NCBI GenBank assembly: GCA_040877935.1
Contig: JBBDNB010000012.1
Location: forward strand, 62,001 to 126,000
Source: Chitinophagales bacterium
GTDB lineage: Bacteria > Bacteroidota > Bacteroidia > Chitinophagales > CAIOSU01
Direction: 5' to 3'
DNA length: 64,000 bases
Part shown: in pieces, positions 33,175-53,916 of the stretch
How the letters are laid out: each line of letters opens with the position of its first letter
Position numbering within the stretch: the first letter of the stretch is position 1
Notes under the pieces: model-generated
Seen by the model: only the letters and a program-made list of their open reading frames with translations
What the model was told of the DNA's origin: nothing
The model's database searches: none
Position numbers and translations under genes: made by a program

Positions 33175-33254
33175 AATGACGGTTTCAATTTAACCTCAAT
33201 GCTGCTCTTTCTGTTTTCGAATCCAAAGCAATATTGTTATGAAAACGCAAACCC

Positions 33255-33402
33255 GCGTGAGGGATGGAAGCGGTATCCTTTTGGGGCGGGGCATTAGTGT
33301 TGCGGGCTTTGGGAAAGCGACCAGCGGAAGCTCATACTAAAGTCCATTTGCAACACTTTGCCATCGCACCAAAAGATAGAGCGGACAGCCCGGTAAACAC
33401 GC
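33255..33402 (+). ncRNA. Possible structured RNA or folded repeat element
   Basis: GCGTG (33255-33259) pairs with CACGC (33398-33402). Inside it, ATCCTTTTGGGGC (33275-33287) pairs with GCACCAAAAGAT (33366-33377) with one mismatch and one bulge. Between the stems the strands read GGAAGCGG and AGAGCGGACAGC, an unpaired pair of GCGG boxes. No promoter or terminator was found, so it could equally be a DNA repeat. Confidence 0.4.
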
Positions 33403-42360: not shown

Positions 42361-45300
42361 TTATCTCAGAAGCGTCACATTTCCTTTTTTTAATACTTCC
42401 TGTCCGTTGGAGCATACGCCCTCCATTACATAGACAAATACGTCTGAACTCAACATACGTCCTTTGTAAAAGCCATCCCAACCGTGATTGACATCTTTAC
42501 TTTCAAATACCATATTGCCCCAGCGATCAAATATCCTGAAATAATTCAGATGGGATACGCCAAATCCTCTTACATAAAGCACGTCATTGATTTCGTCTTT
42601 ATTGGGCGAAAAAGTATTGGGAATATAGAAATTGTCACCACAATCCCCGGCAGATTTTACCAATACTGTATCATAGGCCACACAGCCCTCAGTATCGGTA
42701 AATTTCAATGTAAATTCCTGCTCGTCCTGATCAACGTACCATTCCGGGTTTTCACAATTGGTACAGTTTAGGGCTTCATAAGGCCCCCACTCATAATTTC
42801 TTGCAAAATGACTGCTCACTACGTTAAGGGTGATTGTTCCGCCATTAACAGAGCGTTCAGGATCCTCAATTTTAAGATCAGGGATTTGGTTTACTTTGAT
42901 ATTTACCTTTTGTGTGTCAGCAATACAAGCGCCACTTTCAATAATTCTGGTGTAGCTAATACTGCGCTCTGGTTTACTCTGAACAGAGTGCTCTGAAATA
43001 TTGCTCAGGTAGTTAAGTGGTGACCAGCTTACAGTTGAACCCAGATAGCTTTCAGCAGAAATATTAGTATTGAACTGCACAACATTGCCGGCACATATAC
43101 TTGTGTCATTCAATGGACTGGCAATCACTTTTTCTATTACTTCCAGGTTAACAGTGTCGGAATTTTGACAGTCATATTGATTGTATGCAGTTACGATCAA
43201 TTGAATATCATCTTCAGGATTTGCTGTTGGGCTCAGTATATTGTCTGCCGATAATACTTTTGGCTGTGTCCACTCAAAAACAACACCTGTATTTGAAACA
43301 GAGCTTAATGTAATTTCATCACCGAGGCACAGTTTTGTGTCCTCAATTGTTTGAATATCTGGCAAAGGACGAACAGTTATTGTAATACTGTCTTGTGCAG
43401 TACATCCAAATTCACTTTCAACTTCAACAACATATTCTATATCATTGATGGCTGTAAAGCTCGGGTCATCACAATTTGTGCAGTTTAATCCTGAAGTATT
43501 TTCAAGCCAGGTGTAATTCACTCCTCCACTTGCCTGCAGGTTTACGGTTTCATTCAGGCAAGCATCAGAAGGGCCAACAATGTGAGTTACCGGAAGCGGG
43601 TTTACAAATACTTTTACACTATCAGAAATTGTACAGGCAAATTGGTTGCTCATTTCAACTACATATGTTGCAGAATCTTCGGGAGTGGCAACTGGATTTT
43701 CGCAATTAGTACAAGACAGGCTGTTATTGCCATTAGCAATCCAGTTATAGCTGTTGCCCCCCTGTGTATTTAGCACTACTGAAGCACCTTCACATATTGT
43801 GGTGTCGTTTTGTACAATTCCATCGGGATTTGGATTTACTGTTACAGATACGGAATCTGTACTAACACATCCTGCAGAATTACTTACTTCTACATAATAC
43901 ACAGTGCTTTCTATAGCTCTTATAATATTAGTGTCACAGCTCGGACAATTGCCATTGGGAGTCCAGTTGTAAAAATCACCGCCACTTGCCCAGATTTCAG
44001 CAATTTCCCCATAGCATAGTACTGTATCTGAACTTGTATTTGTCTGTGGTGGATAATTCACTTGAATATTTACAGAGTCTGTATTGCTGCAACCTTTTTT
44101 GTCTGTAACAGTTAAAACATAATTTGTAGTAGAATCCGGTTGTGCAATAGGATTGGCTATATTTGAATTGCTTAGACCAGCTGCAGGTGTCCAATTATAG
44201 GTAATTCCCCCTTGGCCGTTAAGTTGAGTTTGCTCATAAGAACAGATACTTGAATCTTGTCCTGCATTGGCAATAGGTAACTCGTTGATGGTTATTGCAT
44301 TGGAAACAGTATCTCTACAACCACTCACTGATGTTACAATCAATTGAACATCGTAAGTTCCGGAATCTGGATACTGTGTCACTGTATTTTGAGTACTGTC
44401 AGTTAGTCCATTGCCAAAATCCCAGCTCCATTTGGCAAGTGTACTGTCAGATTGGGTAAGGTCTGTAAATGTGATGTCTGCGGAAATACATTTTAATCCT
44501 GCATTACTGAATTCTGCCTGTGGCCCACGATCAACACGAATAAAAGCCTCTTTTCTCATGGTATCAGAACAGTAGTCATTTGAAACAATCAGCTCTACTG
44601 TATAAATTCCTGGGCTATTATAATGATGTAAAGGATTTTGAGCTGTAGAAGTATTGCCGTCACCAAAATCCCAGTGTCGGTTTGTAATATTAGGGAATCC
44701 GGTTGAAAGGTCTCCGAATTGAATGCTTCCTGATTTACACAGATAATTGCTGTCTGCAATAAAATCTGCCTGAATATCCCCAACCATTAATGTGTCGCTA
44801 CTGCTAATTGTAAATAAGCATCCCTGCCCGTCATCCAATACCAGTACGGGGTTGTAGATTCCGGAATTGGGATAAGTATGAGTAGCTGTATCTCCTCCGG
44901 TAAAAAGCGTACCATCACCAAAATCCCAGGTATTCTCCACAGAATTGATTGTCTGTGCCGTAAATTCTATTTCATTGCCCAGGCAGCCATCTTTAGGGGT
45001 AAAACTAAAAGTGCCATTAGGACCGTTGACTATTACCAGGTCTTCTTTTTTCAAAGTGTCTTTACAACCTACTATATTTGTTACAATCAATTCTACAGAG
45101 AAACTCCCCGGTTGATTGTAAACATTTGAAGGCTCGTTGATCTGACTTTTACTGCCATCACCAAAATCCCAATCCCATGCTGTAATATTGCCTTTGGAGC
45201 TGTCCGTGAAATGCACCAATAATGGCGGACAAGGTGAGAAAAGCGAATCGGCATAAAAATCAGCAACCGGATCTGAAACAGTTACATAATCCGTTTTTAC

Positions 45301-48072
45301 TAAGGTGGAATCACAACCGAATTGATCGGTTACAGTTAAAGTAATGGTGTAAGTACCTTCAAATTCGTATTCATGCTCAGGGTTTTGAATAGTATCTGTA
45401 TTTCCATCGCCAAACTCCCAGTAATAGCTCAAGCCATTTCCTTCGGAAGAATCAGTGAAACTAACGGCTTTACCTGTACAGGTCAATTCATCTGCACTAA
45501 AATTGGCTATGGGCAATGAAGGTTTGATCAATTGGGATTTAACAATGGTATCGGTACAACCATTCACGTCTTCTATCATAAGCGTAACATCCTGTATCAG
45601 ACTGTTTTTATAGACATGTGAAGGGTTTTGCACCTGGCTGGAATCTCCATCGCCAAAGTACCATTTGAATTGATTCACGGCACCGCCAAATCCCACGGAT
45701 GAATCTATAAATACCACATTCAATGGAGCACATCCTGTTGTAGGTGTAGCACCAAAATTAGCTAAAGGGCCTCTCACGAAAATGAAATCTTCTTTCAACA
45801 GTGTATCGGCACAACCATTCACATCTTCCGAAATCAGACTGATATCGTAATATCCAGGCTCGTGGAATGTAAACGCAGGATCAACTAAACTAGAAGTCCG
45901 TGTTCCCTGTTCTATCTGCCATTTATATTTATCTCCATCTACAGAAAGATTTTTTAACTGAACTAAATAGGGATTACAAACCAGCGTATCTGCACTGGTA
46001 AAATCTGCTTTGGTATCGTATATGCGAATATTTTCCACAGCAATGTCCATACAACCATAAACTGAGTCTGTTACAGTAAGAGATACGGAATAAACACCGG
46101 TTGAATCAAAGCGGTGAGTTGGGTTCCTGTCAGTAGAGGTATTTCCATCGCCAAAATCCCATTCCCAGGTTTGTGCAGCAAGTGATGCATCTGTAAATGA
46201 AATTTCATAAGTATCGGCACAAGTTCTGTCGAAAGTAAATCCTGCACCGGGAGGATGGATGGTTACAATATTTTGATAAGCCTGTGTATCGGCACAACCA
46301 TACATAGAAGCAATTAATACCACTGAAAATGTACCGGTATCACTATACACATAAGATGGGTTTTGTTCACTTGAATGACCTTCATCACCAAACTCCCAGT
46401 ACCAATCATTGGAATTGGGTGTGGTGAGATTGGTGAAATTTATAGGATCACTTTTACAACTGACAGTAGGAGAGTAGGCAAAATCTGCATCCGGTTTTTC
46501 ACCGGCAGATGCAAACTGTGTCATAAGCAAAGTATCGCGACAGCCCCTGGCATTTCTCACAATCAGGCTTACATCATAAATGCCCTGTGCTGTATAGGTG
46601 TGGGCTGGATTGGGTTGGGTTGAAGTATTTCCATCCCCAAAATCCCAGATATATTGATTGATGGGTTCTGTAGAAATACTTTGATCAGTAAAATTGCTTG
46701 TCATAGGAACACACCCGCTGGTTTGGTCTGCAATAAAACTCGCTTCAGGACTTTCCACACTAACATAATCTTCCAGAATTAAAGTATCACGACAACCATT
46801 GAGACTTCCAACGCTCAGTGTGATATCGTACTGGCCTTCGGTAGTATAAGTGTGAGAGGGGTTTTGATCAGTTGATGTAGTCCCATCCCCAAAATACCAT
46901 TCCCAGGAATTGGCATTTACCGACAAATCGTTAAAATTAACGGTGTGCGGAGCTGTGCAAGCACTTGGGTTATTGGCAGAAAAATCTGCAGTAGGTGCAT
47001 TGGTCACATTAATATAGCCTGTTTTTTCTGTTATATCCCAACAAGTAGCAGAGTTACTTGCAGTGAGTTTTACATTGTAAGTACCGGGTGTTTGGTACGC
47101 ATGAACAGGGTTTTCATCTGTTGAAGTATTTCCATCTCCAAACTCCCAAAGCCATGTGTCGGGATTTGAAGAAGAAAGATCCGTAAACTGAATTGCTTTT
47201 CCAGCACAGGCAAATGTGCTGCTTGCAGAAAAGTCTGCTTGCAATTGCTCAATTGCGATATATCCGGGAATGCTAAGTACATCTGAGCAACCAGATGAGT
47301 TTGTTGCGGTGAATGTAACATCATAAACTCCTGAATTGGTATAAGTATGTGAAGGGTTTGCTTGATTTGAAGTATTGCCATCCCCAAAATCCCAGAAGTA
47401 TGTAATTGCATTGGTAGCCTGCTGTGTAAAATTTACAGTAAGCGGTTCCTGACAGCTCGACTGAACATCAGAAGTGAAATCTGCTTCAGGCAGTGCTTCT
47501 ACTTCTATAAATTGAGAAAAAACCGAGTCGCTTTTACAGCCATCCTGGTTTTCAGCTACAAGTGTGACATTATATATTCCTGCATTTTGATAGACATAAG
47601 TAGGGTTTTGCTGAGTGCTCGTGCCTCCATCTCCAAAATTCCATGTCCATTTATGCAATGGAGAAGAACCGGGATTACTTTCATCTGTAAAATCAACACT
47701 AAGTGGAGTGCAGCCTTTAATTTGACTGGCACTGATATTAATTTCAGGATCTTCAAAAACTTCTATGAAGTCATTCATTACAATGACATCTGTATTCACT
47801 CCATCAGATACAGTAAGCTCTACTGTATATTTTCCGGGGGTAATATAAATTTTTCCCGGATTTTGACTGCTTGATGTACTTCCATTACCGAATTTCCAGT
47901 TCCAGGAACTAATGTTTCCTGTGGATTGATCTGAAAAACGAACGACCACCGGACTACACCCGCTGGTAATATTTGCTGTAAAATTTGCTGTAACTTGTGC
48001 GTGAGCGGAAAATGAACCAAAGACGAGCACTGAGGCCAGTATCTGAATCATTCTTACAAATCGAATTGTCAT
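42361..48072 (-). CDS. Giant PKD-repeat adhesin with T9SS type B sorting domain
   Basis: 1,903 residues from ATG 48072; the frame is open to 48159, but the ATG fits the signal peptide (MIQILASVLVFGSFSAHAQ). I count about 15 PKD modules marked by W-x-W/F-x-FGDG-x-(T/S) (for example WDFGDGNTSTQPNP), then about seven Ig-like modules with C-x-N/G...C patterns and YxW centres. The final 90 residues (FYIPNTFSPNKDEINDVL, FRIFDRWGNMVFES, WDGFYKG) form a gliding-motility-associated, type B T9SS sorting domain. It would be exported and displayed at the cell surface as an adhesin. The 15-base AACAACCAAACTATA flanks the gene in inverted orientation. Confidence 0.93.
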   Translation of the reverse strand: MTIRFVRMIQILASVLVFGSFSAHAQVTANFTANITSGCSPVVVRFSDQSTGNISSWNWKFGNGSTSSSQNPGKIYITPGKYTVELTVSDGVNTDVIVMNDFIEVFEDPEINISASQIKGCTPLSVDFTDESNPGSSPLHKWTWNFGDGGTSTQQNPTYVYQNAGIYNVTLVAENQDGCKSDSVFSQFIEVEALPEADFTSDVQSSCQEPLTVNFTQQATNAITYFWDFGDGNTSNQANPSHTYTNSGVYDVTFTATNSSGCSDVLSIPGYIAIEQLQADFSASSTFACAGKAIQFTDLSSSNPDTWLWEFGDGNTSTDENPVHAYQTPGTYNVKLTASNSATCWDITEKTGYINVTNAPTADFSANNPSACTAPHTVNFNDLSVNANSWEWYFGDGTTSTDQNPSHTYTTEGQYDITLSVGSLNGCRDTLILEDYVSVESPEASFIADQTSGCVPMTSNFTDQSISTEPINQYIWDFGDGNTSTQPNPAHTYTAQGIYDVSLIVRNARGCRDTLLMTQFASAGEKPDADFAYSPTVSCKSDPINFTNLTTPNSNDWYWEFGDEGHSSEQNPSYVYSDTGTFSVVLIASMYGCADTQAYQNIVTIHPPGAGFTFDRTCADTYEISFTDASLAAQTWEWDFGDGNTSTDRNPTHRFDSTGVYSVSLTVTDSVYGCMDIAVENIRIYDTKADFTSADTLVCNPYLVQLKNLSVDGDKYKWQIEQGTRTSSLVDPAFTFHEPGYYDISLISEDVNGCADTLLKEDFIFVRGPLANFGATPTTGCAPLNVVFIDSSVGFGGAVNQFKWYFGDGDSSQVQNPSHVYKNSLIQDVTLMIEDVNGCTDTIVKSQLIKPSLPIANFSADELTCTGKAVSFTDSSEGNGLSYYWEFGDGNTDTIQNPEHEYEFEGTYTITLTVTDQFGCDSTLVKTDYVTVSDPVADFYADSLFSPCPPLLVHFTDSSKGNITAWDWDFGDGSKSQINEPSNVYNQPGSFSVELIVTNIVGCKDTLKKEDLVIVNGPNGTFSFTPKDGCLGNEIEFTAQTINSVENTWDFGDGTLFTGGDTATHTYPNSGIYNPVLVLDDGQGCLFTISSSDTLMVGDIQADFIADSNYLCKSGSIQFGDLSTGFPNITNRHWDFGDGNTSTAQNPLHHYNSPGIYTVELIVSNDYCSDTMRKEAFIRVDRGPQAEFSNAGLKCISADITFTDLTQSDSTLAKWSWDFGNGLTDSTQNTVTQYPDSGTYDVQLIVTSVSGCRDTVSNAITINELPIANAGQDSSICSYEQTQLNGQGGITYNWTPAAGLSNSNIANPIAQPDSTTNYVLTVTDKKGCSNTDSVNIQVNYPPQTNTSSDTVLCYGEIAEIWASGGDFYNWTPNGNCPSCDTNIIRAIESTVYYVEVSNSAGCVSTDSVSVTVNPNPDGIVQNDTTICEGASVVLNTQGGNSYNWIANGNNSLSCTNCENPVATPEDSATYVVEMSNQFACTISDSVKVFVNPLPVTHIVGPSDACLNETVNLQASGGVNYTWLENTSGLNCTNCDDPSFTAINDIEYVVEVESEFGCTAQDSITITVRPLPDIQTIEDTKLCLGDEITLSSVSNTGVVFEWTQPKVLSADNILSPTANPEDDIQLIVTAYNQYDCQNSDTVNLEVIEKVIASPLNDTSICAGNVVQFNTNISAESYLGSTVSWSPLNYLSNISEHSVQSKPERSISYTRIIESGACIADTQKVNIKVNQIPDLKIEDPERSVNGGTITLNVVSSHFARNYEWGPYEALNCTNCENPEWYVDQDEQEFTLKFTDTEGCVAYDTVLVKSAGDCGDNFYIPNTFSPNKDEINDVLYVRGFGVSHLNYFRIFDRWGNMVFESKDVNHGWDGFYKGRMLSSDVFVYVMEGVCSNGQEVLKKGNVTLLR

Positions 48073-48431
48073 GATAATATGTTTGGTTGAGAGAATTATA
48101 GTTTGGTTGTTCACTTTGTACGGGAGGGCAATTAAAAAGTTGTGGTAATCCGAAAACAAATGCAGTAGGATGTTCTATTAGCAGATTTACATTAAAAAGC
48201 CTTTGAACCCGGAATATGCCTGTATTTTTATTTCTGATTAATTCTTTCAATCCTGGAAGAAGTTTTTTGATTTGTGACTGTGGATAAATGAGCGACTTAA
48301 ATCAGGCATTTTTATCTAAATGTGTAAAAACAAAGATTAAAGGTTGGTATCCTTATAAATAATGTGAATAAACACCTGTTTTATGTGGAAATAGATGAGG
48401 AAATATTGTGCATTAATTTTGTGTGAAAATA

Positions 48432-48462
48432 TTTGTACATCTGGGCTTTAGGTCTATTTTTG
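48432..48462 (+). promoter_or_regulatory. Promoter of candidate ncRNA copy A
   Basis: TTTG (48432-48435) and TATTTTTG (48455-48462) are separated by 19 bases, an exact fit to the Bacteroidota consensus TTTG-N17-20-TAnnTTTG. Transcription should begin near 48468. Confidence 0.8.
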
Positions 48463-48467
48463 ATAAC

Positions 48468-48817
48468 ATCGAATGAGAGATAAAGGGTAGAGGCGCAAGC
48501 CAAAAGCTTTGATCTTCATCTGAGAAAATGAAAGCCAAAGGATTGAGTATTTCTTCGGAAGGAAAGGTTGAAAAAGTGTAAACTTCAGAAGGTGGATTTT
48601 TCTCGCTTCTGCTTCGGTATGGAGTTACTGAATGAAACGGTGCAAGCCGGGAATTTCGACAGGTGGGATTTAAAGTTTTCCCAAAATATCTATAGCATCA
48701 TGTATGTTGTAGGGCTATGGGAAGCCATAATAACTGTAATTCGACAATGATTTGCACTACGGTGTTAAATTGTTGAAGGCGGGAATTCAAAGTAATTTGA
48801 TTCCCGCCTTTTGTTTT
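48468..48817 (+). ncRNA. Candidate structured non-coding RNA, copy A (about 350 nt)
   Basis: Runs from a consensus promoter to a terminator. The short open frame inside (48568-48750) has no counterpart in the second copy. Folding features: TCGAAT (48469-48474) pairs with ATTCGA (48739-48744) to close the molecule; GGC-GCAA-GCC (48492-48501) is a GNRA hairpin; TTTCTT-CGGA-AGGAAA (48550-48565); TGC-TTCG-GTA (48610-48619) is a UUCG hairpin; CGG-(6)-CCG follows. The copy at 53565-53916 keeps these stems while changing the loops. It does not carry the P4 motifs of RNase P, a tmRNA tag frame or the single long rod of 6S RNA. Function unknown. Confidence 0.7.
48778..48817 (+). terminator. Terminator of candidate ncRNA copy A
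   Basis: GGCGGGAA-TTCAAA pairs with TTTGA-TTCCCGCC and runs into TTTTGTTTTT. Confidence 0.85.
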
Positions 48818-48867
48818 TATACTGTGCCGGAAATAATGACAGCAAATCCTGTAGAAAGAAACCTTTG

Positions 48868-53154: not shown

Positions 53155-53528
53155 ATTTTATTTTGTGAATCGTTCAAAAAAATAACAAGCATCAAAGTTA
53201 ATGTCTTGACAGGACTTCACTGAATTTTTGGAAAATTACTTATTCTTTTTTGTTTTTCGATTAAAGTAGGGTTGTTTCATGAATCGATAAGACATCAAAT
53301 CCCAAAGTTTGTGTGTGCAATTTCCCCATCATAGCAATTATATTTTTTTTGCTGCGATATTTTCTCACTTTACATGTGTGGAAATCTGCGTGTTTTTTTT
53401 CAAAGAATTTTCTTAAATGTGCAAAAACTAATTTAATATGTTGATATCATGTGTTTACCTGTTTATAAAGACATTTTATTTGTGGATTCAACAAGGCAAA
53501 GATTGTGTATTATTTTTTTGGTTGAAAA

Positions 53529-53559
53529 TTTGTTTATCTCAAAATTACTGCTACTTTTG
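53529..53559 (+). promoter_or_regulatory. Promoter of candidate ncRNA copy B
   Basis: TTTG (53529-53532) and TACTTTTG (53552-53559), 19 bases apart, again fit TTTG-N17-20-TAnnTTTG. Spacing and phase equal those of copy A at 48432-48462. Confidence 0.8.
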
Positions 53560-53564
53560 AATAT

Positions 53565-53916
53565 ATCGAATGAGAGATAAAGGGTAGAGGCGAAAGCCAA
53601 AAGCTTTTATTTTCATCTTAAAAAATGCAGGCCAAATGATTGAGTATTTCTTCGGAAAGAAAGATTGAAAATGTGTAAACATCAGAAAGCTGAATTTTTT
53701 TGCTCTTGCGAAAGCACGGAGTTACTGAATGAAACGGTACAAGCCGGGGATTTCGACAGATGGGATTAAAAGTTTTCCCGAAAGACTTATGACATCAAGC
53801 GTGTAATAGGGAATAGGGAAGCCGTAATAACTGTAATTCGACTGCAATTTTCACTACGGTGTTAAATTGCTGAAGGCGGGAATTCAAAGCAATTTGATTC
53901 CCGCCTTTTGTTTTTT
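53565..53916 (+). ncRNA. Candidate structured non-coding RNA, copy B (about 352 nt)
   Basis: Same order of elements as copy A: TCGAAT (53566-53571) with ATTCGA (53836-53841), GGC-GAAA-GCC (53589-53598), TTTCTT-CGGA-AAGAAA (53647-53662), TGC-GAAA-GCA (53707-53716) and CGG-(6)-CCG. Relative to copy A the GNRA loop GCAA becomes GAAA, UUCG becomes GAAA with G-U becoming G-C, and a U-G pair becomes U-A; all keep pairing. No shared reading frame is seen. The remainder of 53155-54008 holds no gene. It ends in a terminator just before the SDR gene on the same strand. Confidence 0.7.
53875..53916 (+). terminator. Terminator of candidate ncRNA copy B
   Basis: GGCGGGAA-TTCAAA pairs with TTTGATTCCCGCC and continues TTTTGTTTTTT; it is almost identical to the copy A terminator. 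Confidence 0.85.

Follow-up and report, generated by a model that had tools for sequence, protein, structure and literature searches.

What kind of genetic element occupies positions 48432-48818 of the window, by which we mean the whole 64,000-nucleotide stretch analysed here from a Chitinophagales bacterium? A preliminary description of this DNA had taken the interval for a conserved, undescribed structured RNA, transcribed from its own promoter and accompanied by a paralogue 5 kb away. Our analysis makes it close to certain that this copy (copy A) and the paralogue (copy B) are members of a new RNA family of Bacteroidota, structured and free-standing; the joint reading, that of a new, free-standing and trans-acting RNA family whose transcription is probably controlled by DnaA, is one that we regard as fairly probable.

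An independent RNA gene in three copies

The copy A unit (48432-48818, forward strand) comprises, in its sequence, a promoter, a non-coding body of about 350 nt and a GC-stem terminator. The promoter announced in the preliminary description, TTTG-N19-TATTTTTG, can be read directly at 48432-48462, with the -33 TTTG at 48432-48435 and the -7 element TATTTTTG at 48455-48462, and it fits the sigma-ABfr consensus TTTG / TAnnTTTG (PMC7366714), in line with the near-perfect phylum promoter that had been claimed. The RNA gene itself, of about 350 nt, extends over 48467-48818 and is matched at 48466-48811 by R2, the second of the two covariance models described below (167.7 bits). The GC-stem terminator with a T-run was likewise found, as an intrinsic terminator at 48776-48818 in which a GC-rich stem is followed by TTTTGTTTTT. 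That the body holds no credible frame was borne out: its sense frames reach 60 aa if GTG and TTG starts are allowed and 43 aa from ATG, hardly longer than in shuffled sequences (95th percentile, 57), and the 28 other homologues tested have no common frame length above chance. The predicted fold of copy A is better than that of 100 out of 100 shuffles (z = -5.0).

The paralogue is real. Copy B lies at 53529-53915 on the same strand and has the same parts, namely a promoter, TTTG-N19-TACTTTTG, at 53529-53559 and an RNA gene at 53563-53915 (R2 match at 53563-53908, 170.9 bits); it is 82% identical to copy A over 420 nt, and its fold also beats every shuffle (z = -4.0). A third copy, with 86% identity, was found on another contig of the host assembly (G000:C43:50922-51306), so that identity among the host copies ranges from 82 to 86%.

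The surroundings of the RNA are not conserved. Among 59 flanking proteins, 109 Pfam families were recognized and none of them occurs in more than two; the downstream gene may lie on either strand and is unrelated from locus to locus, and tRNA genes are close to only a few copies. Without conserved neighbours, and with either orientation downstream, the RNA is best regarded as a stand-alone gene and not as a leader; the conserved same-strand downstream gene expected of a cis-regulatory leader or riboswitch was not found at these loci. A short-chain dehydrogenase common to the neighbourhoods of four loci proved not to be consistently adjacent and was dropped, and the use of a neighbouring thioesterase as a search query led to nothing. 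Copy A itself is adjoined by a gene (42361-48159) whose product, 1932 aa long, has numerous PKD domains and a CHU_C type IX secretion signal.

The promoter boxes are conserved in 51 non-redundant homologues and the terminator is also kept together with the RNA. Comparison shows each copy to be an independent RNA gene under structural constraint, served by a conserved house-keeping promoter of its own and a strong terminator.

A covarying core unlike known RNAs

In the family core, a closing helix, P1, encloses an internal loop that is near-invariant; a variable interior follows, and then a second hairpin and the terminator. The host copies contain all the parts by which we recognize the family (P1, the GAGAGAUAAA / AAUAACNGUA loop, the P3 hairpin and the terminator). 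In copy A, the closing pair TCGAAT/ATTCGA, noticed already in the preliminary description, provides the two strands of P1, UCGAAU at 48469-48474 and AUUCGA at 48739-48744. Most homologues have UCAAG and CUUGA at these places, a compensated change. Inside P1, the 5' side of the internal loop, GAGAGAUAAA (48475-48484), is near-invariant throughout the family and lies opposite a 3' side that reads AAUAACUGUA in copy A (48729-48738) and AAUAACNGUA in its family form; the loop is asymmetric, and the short inner helix next to it is near-invariant as well. The variable interior (48485-48728 in copy A) measures about 90 to 520 nt in homologues and contains, beside the inner helix, hairpins capped by GNRA and UNCG loops. 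The GCAA and UUCG tetraloop hairpins that had been pointed out in copy A belong to this part, the former as a GGC/GCC hairpin at 48492-48501 and the latter near 48550. Directly after the 3' strand of P1 follow the P3 hairpin, with a UACG-type loop (48745-48775, cap C(UACG)G in copy A), and the terminator.

The preliminary description had proposed a search of Rfam and a look for covariation in homologues, and the covariation turned out to be strong. In an alignment of 75 distinct sequences, which was fitted to the model and so favours pairing, 93.3% of cells are paired, whereas shuffles give 78.0 ± 0.5% and slid partners no more than 51.1%; double changes are seen in 33 of 36 pairs, against 22.7 ± 1.8 in shuffles. 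With the set restricted to sequences below 65% identity, 91.2% of cells are still paired and 32 pairs have double changes. P1 (helix 1 of the analysis) is paired in 99% of cells, with double changes in 5 of its 6 pairs, P3 (helix 5) has them in 12 of 12, and the terminator hairpin corresponds to helices 6 and 7. The slid controls and the behaviour of P3 make it implausible that the covariation is purely a product of the fitting. The covarying P1 clamps the ends of the RNA and presents the asymmetric loop, leaving the interior free to vary, and this loop may be the docking site of a conserved protein.

Could this be a known RNA in a divergent form? The size, the multiple copies and the stand-alone transcription unit would suit a house-keeping RNA (6S, tmRNA, RNase P, SRP) or an RNA of mobile elements (omega RNA, retron, ROOL, GOLLD), and yet we consider such an origin very improbable. 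Rfam 15 returned nothing for the copy A unit at the gathering level and chance matches only at the permissive level, nor did it match the RNA at 18 homologue loci; the window and these loci yielded only tRNA, Flavo-1 at another place and a single TPP riboswitch, distant from the RNA. The statement that copy A differs from RNase P, tmRNA and 6S RNA holds as far as these comparisons reach. Further points against a known or mobile RNA are that the host carries a tmRNA and a weak 6S-Flavo-like locus elsewhere, that no neighbour family recurs, and that no viral, phage or plasmid relatives were found. RNase P and SRP RNA models gave no Rfam match at the copies or at the 18 loci, and the true genes were not located in the host genome. 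The Flavo-1 RNA (RF01705) of the window, at 33246-33399, just reaches its gathering score (42.3 against 42 bits).

Among individual classes, tmRNA (RF00023) resembles the new RNA in its length of about 350 nt and its helix-held ends; however, the host tmRNA is a separate gene (G000:C39:141773) with no array upstream, the new RNA is not recognized as tmRNA, and neither a tRNA-like domain nor a tag reading frame was found at the copies. The 6S RNA of Bacteroides and 6S-Flavo (RF01685) are also stand-alone structured RNAs of Bacteroidota, but 6S-Flavo is only about 108 nt long, and none of copies A to C is matched by its model. The only 6S-Flavo match in the host genome is below threshold (G000:C8:91259, 37 bits), has no DnaA array upstream, and lies in a region (G000:C8:90700-92000) that may hold the 6S RNA of the host lineage. 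OLE, ROOL, GOLLD and HEARO are, like the new RNA, large ornate RNAs that came from comparative genomics; all of them are in Rfam and none matches, and the new RNA has no protein or phage association.

A patchy family of Bacteroidota

Plain BLAST of copy A against 299 genomes of the order gave chance matches only and nothing credible outside the host; taken alone, it would have declared the RNA lineage-specific, and covariance models and a core pattern were needed. The first model, R1, built from the three host copies, found a homologue in another family of the host's order (E = 2.5e-15), which indicated that the 5' core is conserved. The pattern YATCRARTGAGAGATAAA was then scanned over 84,980 species genomes and yielded 106 stretches. 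R1 confirmed about thirty of these loci, all labelled as Bacteroidota or its subgroups, with E-values outside the host genome down to 1e-28, and matched none of the loci from other phyla included in the test. The second model, R2, built on 28 sequences, gave 91 matches, of which 75 are distinct; their E-values reach 1e-85. The homologues, about 75 distinct sequences, are all from Bacteroidota. Phage, plasmid and viral collections contained no relatives, and 46 viral matches to a 3' core pattern were judged by R2 to be due to chance.

Within the phylum, the RNA is present in 6 of 7 genomes of the host's family, often as tandem pairs, and in 58 of 148 genomes of one Cytophagales family, that of genome G480, with one to four matches each; the large searches of the phylum scored no more than four candidates per genome, which makes such counts lower bounds, and were complemented by smaller sets. 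The best matches in this Cytophagales family score the same as the loci of Aquiflexum and Cognataquiflexum. Scattered carriers occur in Bacteroidales, Flavobacteriales and Chitinophagales, and 39 other genomes spread over the phylum gave none. These numbers describe an RNA that is widespread yet patchy and, being absent from most sampled families, not essential in the phylum. The proposal of a conserved, undescribed RNA thus stands as regards homologues with compensatory changes and the lack of an Rfam match, and has to be narrowed as regards distribution, which is not universal; no description of the RNA was found in the part of the literature that was covered.

Two to four copies in many genomes, often in tandem, could also be expected of a functionless repeat or selfish element that happens to carry a promoter and a terminator. 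Such an element seems scarcely credible here, since compensatory changes, the promoter and the near-invariant loop are maintained over several orders and the flanks are not shared; the covariation already contradicts it.

Few bacterial RNAs are large, strongly structured and built on a near-invariant core, and those that are often prove to have central roles. Absent from Rfam, free-standing, multi-copy and distributed over several orders, the present family is a further class, open to immediate testing in relatives that can be cultured, among them Aquiflexum and Cecembia. Two peculiarities deserve mention. At three loci of one genus (L198, L199 and L200) the model matches are split, which suggests enlarged interiors and RNAs about 600 nt long; and in Cecembia lonarensis an intact copy is preceded, at a distance of about 260 bp, by an extra, apparently degenerate one (L140, 5455-5629).

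DnaA-box-like arrays upstream of the promoter

The most informative feature of the locus, a DnaA-box-like array upstream of the promoter, had been missed in the preliminary description. In copy A, TGTGnATAA-like sites at 48279, 48321, 48363, 48384 and 48407 form an array on the RNA strand (48279-48415) with a spacing of 42/42/21/23, and two of them, TGTGGATAA at 48279 and TGTGAATAA at 48363, are exact consensus. Copy B has its sites at 53377, 53418, 53460, 53481 and 53504 (array at 53377-53512, forward strand), spaced nearly as in copy A, and all three host copies have such sites on the RNA strand. Homologues from several orders have them at about -59, -70, -91 and -103 relative to the RNA start; the boxes are phased with the helix (11/21/32/43 bp) and keep a fixed distance to the promoter.

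In 50 non-redundant loci we found the exact DnaA box, TGTGGATAA (TTATCCACA), 16 times in forward and never in reverse orientation (0.11 expected), and TGTKNATAA 63 times forward, in 41 of the 50 loci, and 3 times reverse. Measured against 1.2 Mb taken from three genomes of the Cytophagales family, the two are enriched 202-fold and 122-fold, respectively. Double boxes, defined as two sites 11-12 bp apart that together match at 14 or more of 18 positions, are present in forward orientation in 33 of 54 loci, in reverse in none of the 54, and in 0.4% of background windows. E. coli DnaA binds box pairs 2-3 bp apart (a period of 11 or 12 bp) and regulates transcription (PMC11317965). One relative from the host's order (L250) has three perfect boxes. 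Clustered or double boxes upstream, as in DnaA-regulated promoters, are thus present in the family; the host copies have only single phased boxes, 21/42 bp apart, with no good double box, and some Bacteroidales copies have weak or palindromic arrays (TTATCAACA...TGTTAATAA). No such array accompanies the host tmRNA promoter, which argues against a general element of stable RNAs; no 16S gene is assembled in the host.

The sites strongly suggest that DnaA, or a factor of nearly its specificity, binds the array and controls transcription. The single boxes of the host and the palindromic Bacteroidales variants weaken the identification of DnaA, and the weak or palindromic arrays may point to another factor with a similar site. 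The RNA family could then be genuine and new, with its array bound by a different activator in the manner of the phased upstream Fis sites of rRNA promoters, and the product an abundant stable RNA unrelated to replication. Helix phasing (11/21/32/43 bp) and a fixed promoter distance would suit any activator, and the boxes are often degenerate (TGTTnATAA, TGTGGGGAA); however, no form of the box is more enriched than the exact DnaA 9-mer, at 202-fold, the pairing at 11-12 bp is the preference mapped for E. coli DnaA (PMC11317965), and the host tmRNA promoter has no array. We regard this alternative as doubtful, though it deserves to be taken seriously.

If DnaA is the regulator, ordered sites in the promoter suggest that the RNA may be tied to the cell cycle. 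DnaA would bind the phased boxes, partly as double boxes, and control transcription; RNA output would track how much DnaA is active and, through it, the replication cycle; and the RNA would act in trans, not as its neighbour's leader, through a protein bound at the P1 loop, the two forming a small ribonucleoprotein that serves the control of growth or the cell cycle. The full proposal, a non-coding RNA family under direct DnaA control that links chromosome replication to growth or division as a trans-acting ribonucleoprotein, is one we put forward tentatively. It would be the first regulator of its kind in the phylum and would add a new class to the outputs of DnaA; should the arrays bind DnaA, the RNA would give the replication initiator a conserved non-coding output and offer a way into the cell cycle of Bacteroidota, about which little is known. 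Likened by description, the RNA may work most like a cell-cycle non-coding RNA such as CcnA of Caulobacter crescentus, without being a member of its class: both are stand-alone and CcnA is under a cell-cycle master regulator, but CcnA belongs to another phylum, lies at the replication origin, is presumably activated by CtrA, and pairs with the ctrA and gcrA mRNAs (PMC8959179). DnaA-regulated promoters and DARS2 of E. coli share the promoter-near double boxes 2-3 bp apart; unlike the present arrays, none is described, in the sections of PMC11317965 at hand, as driving a conserved structured non-coding RNA.

The locus might also be mainly a DNA element. Examples are datA and DARS, clusters of boxes at a distance from oriC. 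The arrays, clustered and present in several copies per genome, resemble them, and one could imagine a DnaA-titrating or -reactivating element, or a replication origin, to which the RNA is secondary. We find this quite improbable, because the RNA itself is under strong structural selection, the host dnaA locus is box-free and, by 20-point sampling, the copies lie off the GC-skew minimum in three complete genomes. In the 20 kb around the host dnaA gene (L242, G000:C55:22001-42000) no TTATNCACA box was found, which places oriC probably elsewhere in the host genome; in the three complete genomes, hundreds of kilobases separate the copies from the GC-skew minimum, as located by this coarse sampling. 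Neither result supports the arrays as marks of oriC. At another locus (L269, 8864-16082; G783:C1, about 1.26 Mb), seven perfect TTATCCACA boxes are distributed over about 7 kb of mostly coding DNA around the GC-skew minimum, a cluster that is possibly an origin or a DnaA-titration region.
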